Below are positions 2,413 through 62,043 of a stretch of DNA of 64,000 nt, one piece after another (position 1 is the first letter of the stretch; every line of letters begins with the position of its first letter). The stretch comes from Cryobacterium sp. MP_M3 (GTDB lineage Bacteria; Actinomycetota; Actinomycetes; Actinomycetales; Microbacteriaceae), in contig NZ_JADOVI010000006.1 of the NCBI RefSeq assembly GCF_015752155.1, positions 62,001 to 126,000 on the forward strand, given 5' to 3'. The notes beneath the pieces were generated by a model. That model made no database searches, was not told the origin of the DNA, and saw only the letters and a program-made list of their open reading frames with translations. A program made the translations under genes and the position numbers.

Positions 2413-3399
2413 ATGCCGGCGACCGCGTTAGCCCTCGGGGCGCTCGCCCTCGCCCTGGCGTGGCCTCTTCCGATCCTGCTCTCCCGGGCTCGGTGGCCGG
2501 CCCGCTCCCCCGGCCTCGCGCTGGTGCTCTGGCAGTCGATCGCCCTCGCCGGCGGCCTGTCGATGATCGGGGCCCTGTTCGCCTACGGACTGCTCGGGTT
2601 CGGGACCAATGCGCTGGCGGGCATCCGGTCCCTGTCGGTGCACGCCGGCTCCGGAGCGGTCCCCGCCGGGGTGACGTTCGGCCAGGTGCTCGCGCTCGCC
2701 GCCGCGTTCCTGCTCGCCGGGCACCTGCTGCTCAATCTGGCGGCCACGTTCCTCCGCGCCCGGGTGCAGCTGCGCCGGCACCGGCACCTGGTCGCGCTGC
2801 TCAGCGAGCCGTCGGCCGACCGTCCGGGCACCCGCGTCATCGACCATGAGGCCCCGGTCGCCTACTGCCTGCCCGGCGCGACGACGTCGGCGACCGTGTT
2901 GTCGCGGGGGCTGATCAGCCTGCTCGAGGCCGATCAGCTCCGCGCGGTGGTGGCCCACGAGCGCGCGCACCTGCTGCAGCGCCACCATGTCGTGCTGCTC
3001 GCGTTCCGGTCCTGGCGCAGCGCGCTGCCGTGGTTCCCGATCGCCACCCGGGCGGAGACCGCAGTGGGCCTGCTGGTTGAGATGCTCGCCGACGACGAGG
3101 CCCGCCGGCAGGTCGACGACCGCACGCTCGCGATGGCGATCGCGCTCGTGGGTTCGGCACACGGGCCGGTCACCGGGGCAGGCGACACGGGGGCGGCCGA
3201 CACGGGGGCGGGCGAGACGGGGCCGCAGGGCACGGATGCCACGACTTTCGCCGGGCCGGATCATCCGTTCGACCTGTTGACTCCCCGCCTTCGCCGCCTC
3301 GTGGTGGCCACGCCGCGGCTGCGCGGTCACCAGGGCTTCGCTGTTCTGGCCGCGTCGGCAGGGCTGCTCGCCCTGCCGACGGTGCTGCTGCTCGCCTGA
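2413..3399 (+). CDS. M56 family (BlaR1-like) membrane metallopeptidase
   Basis: A 328-residue membrane protein with hydrophobic helices near residues 3-22, 36-62 and 88-113, and the zinc-protease motif HERAH at 182-186. This is the arrangement of the M56/BlaR1 protease domain. Unlike BlaR1 and MecR1 it has no C-terminal penicillin-binding sensor; after the protease core there is only a short tail with one hydrophobic helix at the end. Residues around 255-275 are a low-complexity Gly/Asp/Thr stretch from a 15-bp DNA repeat (GDTGA, ADTGA, GETGP). It follows the BlaI-type gene and probably cleaves it. The signal it senses cannot be read from sequence. Confidence 0.85.
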   Translation: MPATALALGALALALAWPLPILLSRARWPARSPGLALVLWQSIALAGGLSMIGALFAYGLLGFGTNALAGIRSLSVHAGSGAVPAGVTFGQVLALAAAFLLAGHLLLNLAATFLRARVQLRRHRHLVALLSEPSADRPGTRVIDHEAPVAYCLPGATTSATVLSRGLISLLEADQLRAVVAHERAHLLQRHHVVLLAFRSWRSALPWFPIATRAETAVGLLVEMLADDEARRQVDDRTLAMAIALVGSAHGPVTGAGDTGAADTGAGETGPQGTDATTFAGPDHPFDLLTPRLRRLVVATPRLRGHQGFAVLAASAGLLALPTVLLLA

Positions 3400-3415
3400 C
3401 CGGGAGCCGCAGAGG

Positions 3416-4342
3416 CTAGAAGAGTTTCGCCTTTCCCAGCCACTCGGCGGCGATCGCCTTCGCGGACTTCTGGTCGTTCTTGCTCTCCGAGTTCATGCTC
3501 ACCAGGTCCTCGGCGCTCAGGGCGGCGCTGACCTTGTTGAGCACTGCTGCGGCCTTGTCGTCGACCTTCTTCGACACGACGGGTACGACGTTGTCCGGGA
3601 AGAACAACCCGTCGGGGTCGGCGAGGGCGACGAGCTTGTTCGACTTGATGTTCGGGTCGGCGGTGTAGATGTTCGCCAGCTGGATGTCTCCGTCGACGAG
3701 AGCCTTGACGGTGAGCGGTCCGCCGCTGTCCTCGACCGGCTTGAATCCGGCGGTCACGATGCCGTACTTCTCCTTGAGCGCGGTCGGGCCGTAGGGACGG
3801 GTCTCCAGCTCGGAGTTTCCGCCGACCGTGATGGGCTCGGTGACGTTCTTCAGCGAAGCGATGTCGGTGAGCTTGTACTTCGTGGCGAAGGCCTGCGTGA
3901 CGGTCCACGAGTTCTGGTCGCTCGCGGCGGCCTGGTCGAGCACGCTCAGGCCGGACGGCAGTGCCTTCTGGAGTTCGGCGTAGGTCTCATCTGCTGTGCC
4001 GCCGGCCGCCTTCTTGTCGAGGGCCTGCAGCAGGCTGCCGGTGTACTCGGGGAAGACGTCGATCTTGCCGCCGGTGATGTCGGGCAGGTAGACCTCGCGC
4101 TGGCCGATCCGGAACTGCCGGTCGACGGTGACGCCGTTGGCCTCGAGTGCCTGGGCGTAGATCTCGGCGATGATCTCGTTGGAGTAGTAGTCCTGCGAGC
4201 CGACCACAAGGGTCTTCGAGTCGCCCGACGTGGTACTTCCGGCGCCCAGCGGATCGCCGGACGCACACCCTGCAAGGGCTACGACGGCCCCAACCGCGAC
4301 CGCGGCGATTGCCGCGAGCCGGCCTCTTTTCACTGTGAACAT
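3416..4342 (-). CDS. osmoprotectant (glycine betaine/choline-type) ABC transporter substrate-binding lipoprotein
   Basis: Extracytoplasmic solute-binding lipoprotein of 308 residues, in the ProX/OpuBC-type family that binds glycine betaine, choline or related quaternary amines. It has a positively charged N-terminus, a hydrophobic signal and a lipobox with the acylated Cys at position 26 (LAGC). The mature part has family features such as VVGSQDYYSNEIIAEIYAQ, DVFPEYTGSLLQ and a TYAELQKALP segment. The reading frame is open further upstream, but that part lies on top of the permease gene; the ATG at 4342 overlaps the permease stop as TAATG. It is the last gene of the importer operon. The ligand is not determined. 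Confidence 0.92.
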   Translation of the reverse strand: MFTVKRGRLAAIAAVAVGAVVALAGCASGDPLGAGSTTSGDSKTLVVGSQDYYSNEIIAEIYAQALEANGVTVDRQFRIGQREVYLPDITGGKIDVFPEYTGSLLQALDKKAAGGTADETYAELQKALPSGLSVLDQAAASDQNSWTVTQAFATKYKLTDIASLKNVTEPITVGGNSELETRPYGPTALKEKYGIVTAGFKPVEDSGGPLTVKALVDGDIQLANIYTADPNIKSNKLVALADPDGLFFPDNVVPVVSKKVDDKAAAVLNKVSAALSAEDLVSMNSESKNDQKSAKAIAAEWLGKAKLF

Positions 4343-28371: not shown

Positions 28372-29447
28372 TCGAGGTAGAACGTTCCGACGCCGGCGGC
28401 GACGAGTAGGCCGCCGATGATCCAGAACCGGACGACGACGGTCACCTCGGCCCAGCCCTTGAGCTCGAAGTGGTGGTGGATCGGGCTCATCAGGAAGATC
28501 CGTTTGCCGCGGGTCACCTTGAAGTAGGCGCGCTGCACGATCACGGAACCGGTTTCGATCACGAAGATGCCGCCGAGCAGCACGAGCAGGAGTTCGGTGC
28601 GGCTGAGGATCGCCAGGGCGGCAAGGGCGCCGCCGATCGCGAGCGACCCGGTGTCGCCGAGGAAGATCTTCGCCGGCGAGGTATTCCACCACAGGAAGCC
28701 GATCAGGCCGCCGACGATGGCCGCCGCGACGATGGCCAGGTCGAGGGGGTCGCGGGTGTCGTAGGACCGGTAGAGGTCGCCGACATCCGCGCCGCCGAAC
28801 CTGGCCTGGTTGGACTGCCAGAACCCGATGACGATGAAGGCGCCGATCGCGAGGATCGAGGACCCGGTGGCGAGCCCGTCGAGACCGTCGGTCACGTTGA
28901 CCCCGTTCGAGGTGGCGGCGACGATCAGGCAGATCCAGACGATGAAGACGGCGATCCCGATCACGGTGCCGAGCTCCATGAAGTCCAGCGGCAGGTCCCG
29001 GATGAAGGAGATCTGGGTCGAGGCCGGGGTCAGGCCGTGCCGGTTGGGGAACTGCAGGGAGAGGTAGCCGAAGGTGCCGGCGACCAGGACCTGCCCGACC
29101 ACCTTCGCCCAGCCGCCGAGGCCGAGGCTGCGCTGGTTGCGGGTCTTGAGGAAGTCGTCGACGAAGCCGACCAGTCCGAGTCCCACCATCATGAACAGCA
29201 CGAGCAGGGGGGATGCCGGGATGGCCCGGTGGGCGATGAACATGGCCAGGAAGTAGCTGACCAGCGTGCCGATGATGATGATGATACCGCCCATGGTGGC
29301 GGTGCCGCGCTTGGCGTGGTGGCTCTGCGGACCGTCATCGCGGATGAACTGGCCCCAGCCGAGCTTCTTGAACAGCCGGATGAACAGCGGGGTGAAGGCC
29401 AGGGTGAAGACGAGCGACATGGCCCCGGCGCTCAGTAGTGCAATCAC
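28347..29447 (-). CDS. mraY: phospho-MurNAc-pentapeptide transferase
   Basis: Ten-helix membrane enzyme (366 aa) that attaches phospho-MurNAc-pentapeptide to undecaprenyl phosphate, giving lipid I. The catalytic DDFLKTRN motif ([17 protein letters not shown]), [31 protein letters not shown] and [13 protein letters not shown] are all present. GTG start overlaps the murF stop as GTGA. Its stop overlaps murD. Confidence 0.97.
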
Positions 29448-56375: not shown

Positions 56376-57251
56376 TCAACCCGCGGATGCGCCGGTGCGG
56401 GGCTCCGCATCGCCTCGCTCCGACCGTGAACGGCTGCCCGTTTCGGACTTTGCACGGCTGCGCTCGACGCTCCGCCGGAGGGCCTCCATCAGGTCGAGCA
56501 CTTCCCCGCCGCCTTCCGCGCCCCCCTCGCCCTCTCCGGGCGCGCGGCCGAAGGTGACGCTGGTGTCGACCGTGTCACCGGCCGCGAGCTTCGCCTCGAT
56601 CAGCTCCCGTAGCTGGTCCTGGTAGTCGTCCCGGAAGTCTCCGGGCGAGAAATCGGAAGCGAACGATTCGACCAGCGCCGCCGACAGGTCCAGTTCCTGG
56701 GCCGAGATGCGCACCTCCGCGTCGAGCGCCGGAAAATCCGCCACCCGGATCTCGTCCGCCCAGAGCAGGGACTGCAGCAGCAGCACGTCGCCGCGCACGC
56801 GGAGAGCCCCGAGCCGGGTCTTCTGGCGCAGGGCGAAGCGAACGATCGCGGTGCGGTCGGTCGCCTGCAACGCGTGCCGCAGCAGCACATACGCCTTGGG
56901 CGATGAACCGTCCGGTTCGAGGTAGTAGCTGCGTTCGTAGCTCATCGGGTCGAGTTGCTCGCTCGGCACGAATTCGACCACGTCGATCTCACGGCTCCGC
57001 TCGGCCGGCAGGGAGGCCAGGTCGGCGTCGGTGAGGATCATCGTGCGGTCGCCGTCGTCCCAGGCCTTGTCGATGTGGGCATAGTCCACGACCTGGCCGC
57101 AGATTTCGCAGCGGCGCTGGTAGCGGATGCGCCCGCCGTCCTTGTCGTGCACCTGGTGCAGTGCGACGTCATGGTCCTCGGTGGCGCTGTAGACCTTGAC
57201 GGGCACATTGACGAGTCCGAAGGTGATCGCGCCCTTCCAGATCGATCTCAT
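56376..57251 (-). CDS. ku: non-homologous end-joining protein Ku
   Basis: Bacterial Ku (291 aa), the homodimeric ring that threads onto DNA double-strand ends and recruits LigD. The N-terminal MRSIWKGAITFGLVNVPVKVYSAT and RCEICGQVVDYAHIDKAW regions with two Cys, VEFVPSEQLDPMSYERSYYLEPD and the LLQSLLWADEIR segment are typical. A Gly/Glu-rich linker leads to a basic Arg/Ser-rich tail (RSRAKSETGSRSRSERG) that may bind DNA. ligD is 2.3 kb away on the other strand, with a nuclease gene between. Confidence 0.95.
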   Translation of the reverse strand: MRSIWKGAITFGLVNVPVKVYSATEDHDVALHQVHDKDGGRIRYQRRCEICGQVVDYAHIDKAWDDGDRTMILTDADLASLPAERSREIDVVEFVPSEQLDPMSYERSYYLEPDGSSPKAYVLLRHALQATDRTAIVRFALRQKTRLGALRVRGDVLLLQSLLWADEIRVADFPALDAEVRISAQELDLSAALVESFASDFSPGDFRDDYQDQLRELIEAKLAAGDTVDTSVTFGRAPGEGEGGAEGGGEVLDLMEALRRSVERSRAKSETGSRSRSERGDAEPRTGASAG

Positions 57252-57341
57252 GCACCCCAGTGAACACCGGTTGACCGCGCGAGGCTAGCGTCCGGGCAGG
57301 CTGCGGCGCCCCAGCCCGCCCGGTGGTCGAGCCGACCCGTT

Positions 57342-57360
57342 GGTCGAGCCTGTCGAGACC
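57342..57360. repeat. left 19-bp inverted copy of the GGTCTCGACAGGCTCGACC repeat
   Basis: The sequence is GGTCGAGCCTGTCGAGACC, the exact reverse complement of the repeat copy at 59301-59319. A degenerate extra copy lies at 57322-57338. The two perfect copies enclose the HNH gene and its promoter. Confidence 0.85.
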
Positions 57361-57365
57361 TGGGA

Positions 57366-57391
57366 ATGAATATTCGAATAAATTATCCACA
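57366..57391. promoter_or_regulatory. AT-rich patch with TATTCGAATA palindrome and DnaA-box-like site
   Basis: Within otherwise GC-rich DNA, a perfect 10-bp palindrome TATTCGAATA (57371-57380) is followed by TTATCCACA (57383-57391), identical to the E. coli DnaA-box consensus. Whether DnaA binds it is not known; one box does not make an origin. Confidence 0.45.
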
Positions 57392-57428
57392 AGCGTGACA
57401 ATGTCTCACATCTGTGTTCGTGTTTTGG

Positions 57429-57434
57429 TATCTT
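57429..57434 (+). promoter_or_regulatory. -10 box of the HNH gene
   Basis: TATCTT ends 6 nt before the ATG and no ribosome site is present, so the transcript is probably leaderless. Confidence 0.5.
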
Positions 57435-57440
57435 CGTGGC

Positions 57441-59231
57441 ATGAACCCAGCAGAGCAGCTCAGAGAGGCGGCGGATGCCGTCGCCCGCCTGGGTTGCTCC
57501 AGCGCCGACCTGGCGGCCCTTCCTGATGCGGCGGTGCTGACCGGTCAGCGGGAGATCGCGGAGGCTCGCCGCCTGCTCGAGATGTACGCGGCGTGGATGG
57601 CCGCGACCATCGCCGACCGCTCCCGCCCGGAGCTGGGCCATTCGGGCCTGGCCGCGCAGCAGGGTTTCCTCTCCCCGGAGGCGATGATCCAGAAGGTCAC
57701 CGGCTCGAGCAAGAACGAAGCGTTCAAGCTCGTCGCGGTGGGCACGATGCTCGCCCGGGCGGAGGCCGCCGACCGGCAGGCCGCAGAGGCGCGTGGGGCG
57801 CTCGGTGACGACGGGACCGGTGTCGACGGGACGAGCGTTGACGGGACCGGTGTCGACGGGACGGGCTTTGACGGGGCGGGCTCTGGCGGCGACTCGGGCG
57901 GCCTCGGCGACCCTGGCGGCCCGGGCGGGTTCTCGCCCGCTCCTGCCGGTGCCGCATCGTGGCAGGCGCCGATCGCCCGCGCCGTGACCGCGGGAACCCT
58001 CTCCGTCGACGCCGCCGAATCCATCCGCAAGGGGCTCGGCGACATCGACACCGCCGTCACCGCCGACACACTCGCCACCGCCCTCACCCAGCTGCTGGCG
58101 GAGTCCGCGACGCTCAACGCGGACCAGTGCTTCACCCGGGCCCGCAGGATGCGCGACGACCTCGACCAGGCCGGCATCGCCGCCCGCGAGAAACAGGCTT
58201 ACGACGACCGGTTCCTCAAGGTCTACCGCCTCCCCGACGGGAAGGTCCGCCTGCACGGGCTCTTCGCCCCGGAAGACGGCGAGTTCGTGCTCTCCACCTA
58301 CGACTCCATCACCAGCCCCAGGCGCGGCGGGGTGCGCTTCGTGGACAAGAAGCGCGCCGCCTGGGCCAAGGCCGTCCAGGACGACCCGCGCAGCACCGCG
58401 CAGATCGCCGCGGACTCCTTCGTGCAACTACTCAAAATCGCCGGCGAAGTCGACCCCGGCCAGATGCTCGGCGGCCGCCGCCCCGCCGTGCACATCATCG
58501 TCACCCAAAAAGACCTCACCAACGCCACCCGCACCAGCACGGGCACCGGTGATGAAACCGGCGCCGGTGCCGGGACTGCCACCCCGGCACCGGCCGACAC
58601 GTCCCCCTCAACACCAAGAACAACCCCCGCCACCACGGCATCTGAAGCACCGGGAGCACCGGAGTCGTCAGGCCCCCAACCCCTTCCGGCGGTCGGACCT
58701 CACACAGCCGCTCCCTCCAAGCTATCCGGCCAGCCCGGGACGGCCGTGGTTCTGGCGGCCGGGCATGGCTCCATCGAGGGCAGTCCTGCCCCGGTCTCCC
58801 TCGCCACCGTCGAACGACAACTCTGCGACACCGGCTACATCGGAATCCTCTTCGACAACACCGGCCAACCCATCGACGTCGGCAGAGAACAACGCCTCTT
58901 CACCCCCGCCCAACGCACCGCCATGGGCACCCGCGACGGCGGCTGCATCTGGCCCGACTGCGACCGGCCACCCTCCTGGACCGAAGCCCACCACCTCAAA
59001 ACCTGGCTCCTCGAACACGGCCACACCGACCTCGCCGACGGCGTCAGCCTCTGCCACCCCCACCACCTGCTCCTCCACAACACAGGCTGGATCATCCTCC
59101 GCGACGGCGACCAGCACTGGCTGAAACCACCGGTGTCGGTCGACCCGGCACAAACGCGCATCGCCCTCCCCAAGAAGACCCACCGGCAGCTCGACCCGGG
59201 CACGCCGACCGTGGACCGGGACACGGACTGA
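57441..59231 (+). CDS. DUF222/HNH endonuclease-domain protein (13E12 repeat family)
   Basis: A 596-residue protein of the DUF222 plus HNH family, multicopy in many actinobacteria and known as the 13E12 repeat family in M. tuberculosis. The DUF222 part spans about 20-350 (LLEMYAAWMAATIAD, FTRARRMRDDLDQAGI, LFAPEDGEFVLSTYDS). The C-terminal HNH zinc-finger nuclease carries GGCIWPDCDRPPSWTEAHH, NH-like CHPHHLLLHNTGW. Residues 124-148 are five tandem DGTGV-type pentapeptides, and a Thr/Pro-rich linker of about 70 residues precedes the nuclease domain. The reading frame is intact. It lies between ku and ligD and within inverted 19-bp repeats. DNA target and biological role are unknown. Confidence 0.88.
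   Translation: MNPAEQLREAADAVARLGCSSADLAALPDAAVLTGQREIAEARRLLEMYAAWMAATIADRSRPELGHSGLAAQQGFLSPEAMIQKVTGSSKNEAFKLVAVGTMLARAEAADRQAAEARGALGDDGTGVDGTSVDGTGVDGTGFDGAGSGGDSGGLGDPGGPGGFSPAPAGAASWQAPIARAVTAGTLSVDAAESIRKGLGDIDTAVTADTLATALTQLLAESATLNADQCFTRARRMRDDLDQAGIAAREKQAYDDRFLKVYRLPDGKVRLHGLFAPEDGEFVLSTYDSITSPRRGGVRFVDKKRAAWAKAVQDDPRSTAQIAADSFVQLLKIAGEVDPGQMLGGRRPAVHIIVTQKDLTNATRTSTGTGDETGAGAGTATPAPADTSPSTPRTTPATTASEAPGAPESSGPQPLPAVGPHTAAPSKLSGQPGTAVVLAAGHGSIEGSPAPVSLATVERQLCDTGYIGILFDNTGQPIDVGREQRLFTPAQRTAMGTRDGGCIWPDCDRPPSWTEAHHLKTWLLEHGHTDLADGVSLCHPHHLLLHNTGWIILRDGDQHWLKPPVSVDPAQTRIALPKKTHRQLDPGTPTVDRDTD
57811..57885 (+). repeat. five 15-bp tandem units inside the HNH gene
   Basis: Units begin ACGGGACCGGTGTCG and vary at a few bases; the first 23 bp of units 1-2 are repeated exactly 30 bp later. 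The multiple-of-three length keeps the frame open and gives Asp-Gly-Thr-Gly-Val-type pentapeptides. Confidence 0.85.
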
Positions 59232-59300
59232 CCGGCCCGCCCTGCGGGGCCTCTACCGGCCGTGCCGCTGGCGAGTGAGCTCGCTGAACTCATGGCTCTG

Positions 59301-59319
59301 GGTCTCGACAGGCTCGACC
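59301..59319. repeat. right 19-bp inverted repeat copy (R1)
   Basis: GGTCTCGACAGGCTCGACC, exact reverse complement of 57342-57360. It stands 69 bp after the HNH stop and is the first of six copies in the 340-bp HNH-ligD spacer. Confidence 0.85.
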
Positions 59320-59353
59320 GCCGGTGATTGAGCGTGCCGAAATCATGCCGTCC

Positions 59354-59506
59354 GGTCTCGACGAGCTCGACCACCGCGGGCTCACCGGGTCTCGCCAGGC
59401 TCGACCACCGCGGGGAACCAGGTGTCGACAGGCTCGAACACTGGGGCGGGACCGGGTCGCGACGGGCTCGACCACCGGGGCGGGCGGGGTCTCGACAGGC
59501 TCGACC
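59354..59506. repeat. array of five repeat copies with 33/34-bp period
   Basis: Imperfect copies of the same 19-mer begin at 59354, 59388, 59421, 59455 and 59488, i.e. steps of 34, 33, 34 and 33 bp; the last is a perfect copy. Between them are short GC-rich pieces, mostly ACCGCGGG or ACCGGGGC. With R1 this fills most of the gene-free 59232-59571. No gene is seen here; an antisense frame through it is only the repeat translated. Confidence 0.85.
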
Positions 59507-59571
59507 ACCGCGGGTTCCGGCCCAGCATCGGAACACTAGCCGCGGACGGGGCGCAAGTGCATGCTGGTGCC

Positions 59572-62043
59572 ATGAATCAGGGACCGGACCATTCGGCCAG
59601 CCAGGTCGTCATTGTCGACGGCCACCGGATCACGCTCACCAGCCTCGACAAGGTGCTCTACCCGGAGACCGGCACGACGAAGGCCGACGTGATCGCCTAC
59701 TACGCGGCCGTCGCCGACGTGCTGATCCCCCATGCGGCCAACCGGCCCGCCACGAGGAAGCGGTGGGTGCACGGCGTCGGCACGGCCGCGGAACCCGGCC
59801 ACATGTTCTTCCAGAAGAATCTCGATGCGTCGACCCCGAGCTGGGTGGCCCGGCGGTCGATCGAGCACTCCGACCACGTAAACGTGTATCCGCTGGTCAA
59901 CGACCTGGCCGCACTGACCTGGCTCGGCCAGATCGCGGCCCTCGAAATCCATGTGCCGCAATGGCAGTTCGGCCGAAACGGGCATCCGCGCAACCCGGAT
60001 CGGCTCGTTCTCGACCTGGACCCCGGCGAGGGCGTCACCCTTGCCGAGTGCGCCCACGTCGCCAGGCTGGCCAGGGCCATCCTGCGCGACATGGGCCTGG
60101 ATGCCTTCCCGGTGACCAGCGGCAGCAAGGGTATCCACTTGTATGCGGCGCTGGACCTCAGCCACACCTCGGATCAGGTATCGGCAGTCGCACACGAACT
60201 GGCGCGGGCGCTCGAGGCCGACCATCCTGACCTCGTGGTCAGCGACATGAAAAAGGCCAGACGCGCCGGCCGGGTGTTCGTGGACTGGAGCCAGAACAAC
60301 GCCGCCAAGACCACGATCGCACCGTATTCGTTGCGCGGGACCTCGTTGCCGATGGTCGCCATGCCCCGTACCTGGCGCGAGCTGGCCTCCCCCGGGCTGG
60401 CCCAGGTCCATTACCGCCAGGCCATGCACCGGGTGGAACGGAACGGCGACCCGCTTTCCGGTCTGCTCGCCGCCCACCCTGGTGTGCGGACAGACATCGG
60501 CGGCGGGTCGGACCCGGGCTCGGGCTCGGGGGCAGCCGACCGGCTGTCCGAATACCGCAGCAAGAGGAACAGCGCGCGCACGCCGGAACCGGTGCCGGCC
60601 GAGATCACCGGCACAGCGGAGGGTCGCTCCTTCGTGATCCAGGAGCACCACGCCCGCAACCTGCACTACGACCTGCGGCTCGAGCACGACGGGGTACTCG
60701 CCGCCTGGGCTCTGCCGCGGGGGGTGCCGACCGAGCCGACGAAGAATCATCTCGCCGTGCGCACAGAAGACCACCCGCTCGAGTACGGCACGTTCGAGGG
60801 AGACATTCCGGCCGGAGAATACGGTGCGGGCACGGTCAGGATCTGGGACAGCGGCAGCTACGAGCTCGAGAAGTGGCGCGACGACGAGGTGATCGCCACC
60901 CTGCACGGCGAACCGGGCGGCGGGCTCGGCGGGGCGCGGCGGTTCGCCCTGATCCACACGAAGGGCCACGACCGGGCCGAGAACAACTGGCTGATCCACT
61001 TGATGAAGGCGACGAACCGCCGTGAGCGGGTGGCGCCGGCACCGCTTCGGGCGGCGACCTCGCGCATCCGCCACTCCCCCATGCTCGCCACGCTCGGCAC
61101 CCTGGCCGACCTGGCCGACGCGGACGGCCGAGCCTGGGCGTGCGAGATGAAGTGGGACGGGATCCGACTGCTCGCCTCCGTGACGATGGACGACCCTGTT
61201 GCGACGGACCACCCCGGGGCCACGGTTCGCCTGGTCACCCGGAACGGCAACGACGTCACGGATGCCTACCCCGAGCTGGTGCGCACCCTGCCGTCGGTCG
61301 TCAGGGCCGGATCGGCCGTGCTCGACGGGGAGGTCGTCGTCCTCGACGCCGCGGGCCGGCCGAGTTTCGGTCTGTTGCAGAACCGGACAGACGGCACGAG
61401 CGTGAACTACCTCGTTTTCGACCTGCTCGAGCGGGACGGGCAGGACCTCACCGGGCAGCCGTATTCGGCGCGGCGGGAGATCCTTGGCCAGGTGGTGCAC
61501 GGCAACGCCGAGGTCCAGGTGCCGCCGGCCTTCGACGGCAATGCGGCGGCGGCCCTTCGGGCGAGCCGCGAGCTCGGCCTGGAGGGCATCGTCGCCAAAC
61601 GACTGGACGGCCCCTATGAACCGGGCCGCAGGTCCCGGTCCTGGATCAAGATCAAGCATCATGCGACCCAGGAGGTCGTGGTCGGCGGATGGCGCCCCGG
61701 CAAGGGCCACCGGGCAGGCTCGATCGGATCACTGCTGGTCGGAATTCCGGAAGGGGGCTCCCTCGCCTACGCCGGCCGGGTCGGGACAGGGTTCCGGGAC
61801 CGCGACCTGGACGAGATCATGGACAGGCTCGCGCCGCTCGCCACGGACGAGAGCCCGTTCGCGGAGGTTCCCTCGGCCGACGCCGGTGACGCGAACTGGG
61901 TGCGGCCGATCCTCGTCGGCGAGGTGGAGTTCGCGGAGTGGACGGAGTCGGGGCGGCTCCGGCACCCCGTCTGGCGCGGGTGGCGCCCGGACAAGGCGCC
62001 CGCCGACGTGGTGAGAGAAGGCTCCCGACAGGCCGGGTCTTAG
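59572..62043 (+). CDS. ligD: multifunctional ATP-dependent DNA ligase LigD
   Basis: Main enzyme of bacterial NHEJ (823 aa) with domains in the mycobacterial order. Polymerase/primase (about 15-300) has the catalytic LDLDP at 147-151 and SGSKGIHLY. The phosphoesterase (about 340-470) has HHARNLHYDLRLEHDG (His359-360). The ligase (about 505-823) has the adenylation motif EMKWDGIR with Lys527, LDGEVV, EGIVAKRL and WIKIKHH. ATG at 59572 was chosen because family similarity begins there; the open frame reaches back through the repeat array. No ribosome site is obvious. It converges with a small membrane protein gene, the stops 1 bp apart. Confidence 0.95.
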   Translation: MNQGPDHSASQVVIVDGHRITLTSLDKVLYPETGTTKADVIAYYAAVADVLIPHAANRPATRKRWVHGVGTAAEPGHMFFQKNLDASTPSWVARRSIEHSDHVNVYPLVNDLAALTWLGQIAALEIHVPQWQFGRNGHPRNPDRLVLDLDPGEGVTLAECAHVARLARAILRDMGLDAFPVTSGSKGIHLYAALDLSHTSDQVSAVAHELARALEADHPDLVVSDMKKARRAGRVFVDWSQNNAAKTTIAPYSLRGTSLPMVAMPRTWRELASPGLAQVHYRQAMHRVERNGDPLSGLLAAHPGVRTDIGGGSDPGSGSGAADRLSEYRSKRNSARTPEPVPAEITGTAEGRSFVIQEHHARNLHYDLRLEHDGVLAAWALPRGVPTEPTKNHLAVRTEDHPLEYGTFEGDIPAGEYGAGTVRIWDSGSYELEKWRDDEVIATLHGEPGGGLGGARRFALIHTKGHDRAENNWLIHLMKATNRRERVAPAPLRAATSRIRHSPMLATLGTLADLADADGRAWACEMKWDGIRLLASVTMDDPVATDHPGATVRLVTRNGNDVTDAYPELVRTLPSVVRAGSAVLDGEVVVLDAAGRPSFGLLQNRTDGTSVNYLVFDLLERDGQDLTGQPYSARREILGQVVHGNAEVQVPPAFDGNAAAALRASRELGLEGIVAKRLDGPYEPGRRSRSWIKIKHHATQEVVVGGWRPGKGHRAGSIGSLLVGIPEGGSLAYAGRVGTGFRDRDLDEIMDRLAPLATDESPFAEVPSADAGDANWVRPILVGEVEFAEWTESGRLRHPVWRGWRPDKAPADVVREGSRQAGS

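Follow-up and report, generated by a model that had tools for sequence, protein, structure and literature searches.

A dispersed DUF222/HNH gene cassette with REP-like ends inserted between ku and ligD in Cryobacterium

The window, a stretch of 64 000 nucleotides from Cryobacterium sp. MP_M3, carries between the NHEJ genes ku and ligD a DUF222/HNH gene that is enclosed by inverted repeats. The feature is real, is an insertion and lies beyond what chance would provide. Judged by sequence comparison, it is best read as a REP-bounded variant of the 13E12-type DUF222/HNH family in which the copies appear to be homogenised by conversion, and at the level of the family this reading is held with high confidence. 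To the fuller account, a dispersed cassette with REP-like ends that would home within the genome through its own putative nuclease, with the NHEJ genes as bystanders, we would give an even chance. Counted in its favour are the left border that the several copies of the unit share, a constant polarity in the genome of the window, sites free of the cassette, the association of the repeat with DUF222 genes, and conversion among the copies.

Organisation and insertion of the cassette

The two neighbours are divergent, ku being encoded on the minus strand to the left (56376–57251, 291 aa; PF02735, E 6e-46) and ligD on the plus strand to the right (59572–62043, 823 aa; four domains, PF21686, PF13298, PF01068 and PF04679). 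The first-pass annotation had described a DUF222/HNH gene splitting the pair, and such a gene is present on the plus strand at 57441–59231, open over 596 aa. PF02720 was matched by Pfam at residues 178–371 (57972–58553, plus strand; E 5e-15), and an HNH motif was recognised from the sequence at residues 502–546 (58944–59078, plus strand) in an alignment of 33 sequences. The perfect 19-bp inverted repeats of the same description were also confirmed, as exact reverse complements at 57342–57360 and 59301–59319.

The repeats extend further than this pair. The left end (57320–57360, minus strand) is composed of a partial copy at 57320–57333 and the perfect 19-mer, and the right end (59301–59506, plus strand) is an array of six plus-strand repeats starting at 59301, 59354, 59388, 59421, 59455 and 59488; once both the array and the partial copy are counted the unit spans ∼57320–59510. 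The outward repeat unit GGTCTCGACAGGCTCGACCACCGG is found as one minus copy ∼80 bp before the start codon and as the plus array downstream. Eight repeat matches (≤3 mismatches) were detected in the window against 0.08 expected in shuffles, seven of them surrounding the DUF222/HNH gene and the remaining one at 28868. A conserved cassette promoter region (57361–57440, plus strand) contains, at 57383–57391, TTATCCACA, which we take to be DnaA-box-like and which precedes the gene at the same place in the other long-form copies too. TCCACA was found upstream of 12 of 26 gene starts, compared with 1.6 in base shuffles, and 10 of these lie at -55/-56.

Residues C502, C507, E515, H517, H518, C538 and H542 were invariant in the 33 aligned sequences, a degree of invariance inflated because most of the sequences were picked as open and motif-holding. 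PF02720 was found in all 33 aligned relatives; the Pfam HNH model was found in 5 of the 33 only, and none was reported for the window protein. The window protein was matched by nothing in PADLOC, PHROGs or NCBIfam, and a PDB sequence search returned non-significant matches only (IscB, E 0.39; McrA, E 0.77). No transposase family matched the cassette protein, which is DUF222 and not an HUH (Y1) transposase (PF01797). Ten pairs of DUF222/HNH genes gave dN/dS values of 0.25–0.62; purifying selection of this kind suggests that the protein is in use.

In what follows G000 is the genome of the window, G045 is Cryobacterium sp. HLT2-28, G019 is sp. PH31-AA6, G027 is C. fucosi Hh4 and G012 is C. sinapicolor. 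LigD was searched for in 30 of the 56 congeners and was matched in 28, G016 and G017 being those with no match. The empty site that might be expected in relatives was found in 24 of the 28 LigD-matching congeners, in which ku lies beside ligD with ∼70–175 bp between alignment starts and with neither a DUF222 gene nor a repeat in the spacer. In G027 the spacer is occupied by the 3' end of a DUF222 gene and by its own repeats; in G022 and G028 no ku was present in the fetched upstream stretch, and in G015 ku and ligD gave partial matches only. G045, which was outside the 30-congener draw, is also occupied, and the genomes examined thus include three with the cassette between ku and ligD (G000, HLT2-28 and C. 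fucosi). The spacer of G019 is empty, though this is a close relative (Ku 87%). Since the site is occupied in G000, G045 and G027 but empty in most of the congeners examined, including G019, the alignments indicate that the insertion is derived and arose in the ancestor of the three genomes, unless it was lost by G019.

The aligned empty spacers have one CTAG, and at the occupied site of the window CTAGC flanks both sides (CTAG at 57285–57288 and 59536–59539), a possible short target duplication that is a single case, seen at this site only. CTAG was considered as a general target and was rejected, as a by-eye check of other copies gave no general pattern.

Two further genomes gave weak matches to the window protein on the far side of ku (L107:4693–5052 in G013 and L109:4199–5119 in G029), and the match beside ku in G029 coincides with a strong DUF222 match. 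DUF222 genes may have settled next to ku more than once.

Dispersed copies and the REP-like repeat

The genome of the window is a 3.94-Mb draft in 56 contigs and gave 18 DUF222 matches, representing ∼17 genes, some of which are cut by contig ends. Seven copies are of the long form (the window copy, C16, C13, C10, C6b, C1 and C9), and the six others are located away from ku and ligD. By eye, the similarity among them starts at about the left repeat and spans the promoter region and the gene, and the outer flanks are unrelated. Every one of the seven is flanked left and right by repeats of constant polarity (≤3 mismatches), with the downstream repeat of C13 lying 736 bp away. In C10 and C9 the gene is broken into two frames, and C9 no longer has its ATG. 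Among the shorter DUF222 class of this genome (L040, L041 and L042), three of four copies have one repeat ∼155–175 bp before the start codon, opposite in sense to that of the long form.

C13 also holds a small module between the gene and its downstream repeat (L048:1650–2290), with similar DNA in G027, G019 and G045; by eye, it looks like a RelE/ParE-type toxin–antitoxin pair.

Cassette-free sites were also sought for the copies elsewhere. The C6b site of G019 contains nothing but approximately three repeats between the same flanks; that of G026 contains ∼1.6 kb of other sequence without any repeat, and for G008 a single flank was located. At the C9 site the cassette is present in G019; G026 is without it and without ∼770 bp more. 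The site of the copy found only in G045 (G045_x) has neither repeat nor gene in G000, and in G027 it carries an array but no gene; it was rejected as a clean single difference because G045 has ∼2.5 kb extra beside the cassette. C13 was likewise rejected as a second clean empty site, unrelated sequence following the left flank in G045.

Across G000 the repeat was found in 28 exact copies, 62 copies at ≤1 mismatch and 134 at ≤3, a reversed-pattern control giving 0 and 10. The co-occurrence of the 19-mer with DUF222 genes, proposed as a check in the first-pass annotation, was borne out, as 16 of 48 repeat clusters have a DUF222 gene within 500 bp against 0.5–1.7 expected. The association has P 6e-20 over the whole genome (0.5 expected) and 6e-12 when intergenic DNA alone is counted (1.7 expected, on an assumed 12% of intergenic DNA). 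Of individual repeats (≤1 mismatch), 22 of 62 have a DUF222 gene at ≤500 bp, and 12 of the 17 genes have such a repeat. An empty site exists, then, and the neighbourhood of DUF222 genes is enriched in the 19-mer, the opposite of the two outcomes that the first-pass annotation had named as speaking against it.

The placement of the repeats about the genes is regular. In 30 named loci, which are related and so are not independent trials, an upstream repeat was found in 10, all minus and with the nearest copy at 82–88 bp, and a downstream repeat in 15, all plus. Exceptions to this polarity occur among unnamed loci, L116 (G055) and L134 (G052) carrying opposite-sense copies. Downstream of the DUF222 gene in L132 (G021; 3307–4055) GGTC-ended and GATC-ended repeats stand in opposite orientations, forming a BIME-like mixed array.

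Away from DUF222 genes the repeat stands either solo or in close inverted pairs, of which seven were counted by eye among the copies at ≤1 mismatch. As a strand, an inverted pair from G000 (z -6.8) and an array of G027 (z -7.1) fold more strongly than shuffled sequence, and a single unit does not (z -0.2). Thirty of the 62 repeat loci were classified from crude gene calls. Twelve fell between genes that converge, six between tandem and three between divergent ones, so that 21 of the 30 are intergenic; of the rest, seven were inside called genes and two at an edge. With the 11 DUF222-adjacent and 2 edge loci taken out there remain 9 convergent, 2 tandem, 2 divergent and 4 inside genes, and among these 17 loci two pairs are one site each. 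By its sequence and placement the repeat family is judged to be REP-like.

Comparison of 11 G000 repeats with G045, ten of them with a clear outcome, gave a counterpart (≤3 mismatches) at the aligned place for seven, which suggests that most of the repeats are old; one was decayed (5 mismatches) and two had no counterpart, one of these being beside a DUF222 gene. In G045 itself the upstream repeat has two mismatches in five of seven copies and was not found in one, so the sequence of this upstream copy is only loosely conserved.

A DUF222 match was obtained in 56 of the 57 genus genomes, the window's own included. Over these 57 genomes the repeat (NN form, ≤1 mismatch) numbers between 1 and 576 copies per genome and the DUF222 matches between 0 and 53, and the two counts showed no significant correlation (rho 0.21, p 0.12), in a comparison that uses related genomes and Pfam matches, the latter undercounting the long form (in G033, 2 by Pfam and 23 with the window protein). 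Two repeat-poor genomes, G032 (6 repeats, 26 DUF222 matches) and G036 (6 and 23), had no flanking inverted repeat at the one copy examined in each. This survey of congener copies for flanking repeats used the 16 plus-strand loci of 25, with rough stop-to-stop ORF limits. In G019 four copies of the shorter DUF222 class are 95–96% alike and 81–85% like those of G000, and no repeat (≤1 mismatch) was found within their 4-kb stretches. The proposition that repeats are required for the spread of DUF222 genes is weakened by the repeat-poor congeners, the missing correlation and this homogeneous repeat-free class.

Concerted evolution of the long-form copies

Judged by the flanks, six of the seven long-form loci of G000 have an orthologue in G045, C16 being assigned mainly on its downstream flank; with six of seven sites common to both genomes, moves appear to be rare. 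The tree nevertheless sorted the genes by genome and not by locus, with clades at 100/100 for G045 (seven copies), G019 (five) and G027 (three). The G000 copies do not form one clade, and C13 groups with G045 without strong support. Pairing of the G000 and G045 copies by locus was rejected at six of six loci (p 5e-150 to 6e-4), the locus pairs for this topology test having been named from flanks after the tree had been seen.

The upstream flanks of the orthologues are 92.0–97.7% identical at five of six loci, the C16 flank not being alignable. Within the gene, the mean identity to paralogues of the same genome (84.7–95.5%) exceeded that to the orthologue (82.0–91.7%) in every one of the 18 bins. 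The 80-bp promoter bin was mixed, the mean over paralogues being higher than the orthologue at three of six loci, equal at one and lower at two. A run test with Bonferroni correction was significant for six of 21 G000 pairs and 14 of 21 G045 pairs. Runs of consecutive polymorphic sites are common to the window copy and C1 (66 sites) and to the window copy and C16 (34 sites), the two runs falling in separate regions of the gene. These patterns of identity are those of ectopic gene conversion between dispersed paralogues at fixed sites, as in M. tuberculosis, where gene conversion among REP13E12 copies is reported too.

Explanations and relation to known systems

The account that we prefer would run as follows. 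The cassette entered the short promoter region that the divergent ku and ligD share, in the common ancestor of the three Cryobacterium genomes, and its copies would spread and be homogenised by double-strand-break repair templated on a paralogue. The break would be supplied by the putative activity of the HNH nuclease, amounting to homing within the genome, and the repeats may act as borders or as homology arms during rare moves to new sites. Ku and LigD would be bystanders. That the HNH nuclease drives the homogenisation is held with moderate confidence. Several observations weigh on the other side: the promoter bin favours paralogues at half of the loci only and the G000 copies are not one clade; the repeat-free shorter class of G019 is equally homogeneous and there is no genus-wide correlation; the examined copy in each of G032 and G036 is unflanked, polarity has exceptions, moves are rare and the upstream repeat of G045 is loose.

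The same homogenisation would be expected from passive homologous recombination between copies this similar, and general homologous recombination remains a full rival to breaks made by the HNH nuclease. On this explanation the genes are a passive family and the repeats REP- or terminator-like hairpins that were co-duplicated with them, which we regard as possible, though somewhat doubtful. The strong fold of the inverted pair and the position between convergent genes of nine of the 17 repeat loci that are neither DUF222-adjacent nor at an edge agree with it, as do the homogeneity of the shorter class without repeats and the lack of correlation across genomes. Yet the excess of repeats near DUF222 genes greatly surpasses chance, also with intergenic DNA alone counted, an upstream copy at 82–88 bp in all 10 loci having one is not something that a terminator would need, and purifying selection suggests that the protein is used. 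Homing by the putative nuclease, as preferred here, is set against a further possibility, that the dispersed REP-like repeats owe their spread to the DUF222/HNH protein, acting in the manner of a RAYT in place of an HUH transposase. In the RAYT system as described in PMC2817692, a gene lies between two inverted REPs and the same REP is dispersed, solo or as a doublet, mostly outside genes. The Cryobacterium family, with two inverted repeats flanking the gene and the same repeat scattered as solos and doublets, shares this architecture with RAYT and REPIN systems; the strong association of repeat and DUF222 gene and the gene-less arrays at cassette sites point the same way. It differs in that the cassette protein is DUF222/HNH and is present in several copies per genome, and any mobilisation of the dispersed repeats by the cassette protein is hypothetical. 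Seven of 11 repeats have a counterpart in G045, so most are old, the numbers of repeats and DUF222 genes are uncorrelated, and a single unit folds no better than shuffles. A RAYT-like role is accordingly considered unlikely. Equally improbable in our estimate is a REP-like system driven by the DUF222/HNH proteins themselves, in which the nuclease would recognise the repeat or the inverted doublet, make its cut there or alongside, and propagate by copy repair its own cassette as well as gene-less arrays.

The first-pass annotation had gone on to propose a mobile or amplifiable cassette whose breaks are repaired by the flanking NHEJ genes. Of this proposal, the inserted, multi-copy, repeat-bounded unit stands; the part given to ku and ligD does not. 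A nuclease element coupled to NHEJ, with breaks at the repeats sealed by the neighbouring Ku and LigD, draws on the position between ku and ligD only, and it is faced with a single insertion in three related genomes, with six copies elsewhere, and with two genomes without a LigD match, G016 and G017, that still carry the family (24 and 14 DUF222 matches, 25 and 48 repeats, respectively). We regard such coupling as very improbable, and the location at ku and ligD looks incidental.

The cassette resembles insertion sequences and DNA transposons in its terminal inverted repeats and in the empty site of relatives, and it differs in that no transposase family matches its protein. HNH homing endonucleases bring about conversion among alleles. 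The likeness to them lies in a putative nuclease gene that seems to be copied to related sites, some of which lack the cassette, and in an insertion that is derived; the difference is that conversion in Cryobacterium is among paralogues at different loci and not among alleles. Among the titles and abstract beginnings listed by searches of open-access literature, none joined DUF222/HNH genes to REP-like repeats.

The closest likeness is to the 13E12/REP13E12 loci of mycobacteria, multi-copy DUF222/HNH genes with frequent gene conversion according to PMC13061034 and PMC10589994; several copies and conversion among them are features of the Cryobacterium genes also. The Cryobacterium unit differs in being bounded by a dispersed REP-like repeat, of which the sections of those papers considered here name none. 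For M. tuberculosis the preprint PMC13061034 gives 87 conversion events at REP13E12 loci, which it describes as having no defined function, and this would fit breaks made by the HNH nuclease.

DUF222/HNH genes form a very common family that has no defined function according to the same preprint, which concerns the mycobacterial relatives. In Cryobacterium the ends of the unit are defined, an empty site exists, conversion tracts run through orthologous loci and close species can be compared, so that the idea of a selfish nuclease that drives conversion becomes directly testable. If true, a DUF222 nuclease that recognises the repeat would be an analogue of RAYT/REPIN systems built on an HNH nuclease, and the same reading would go some way towards explaining the place of DUF222 genes among the loci with most conversion in a distant actinobacterium.
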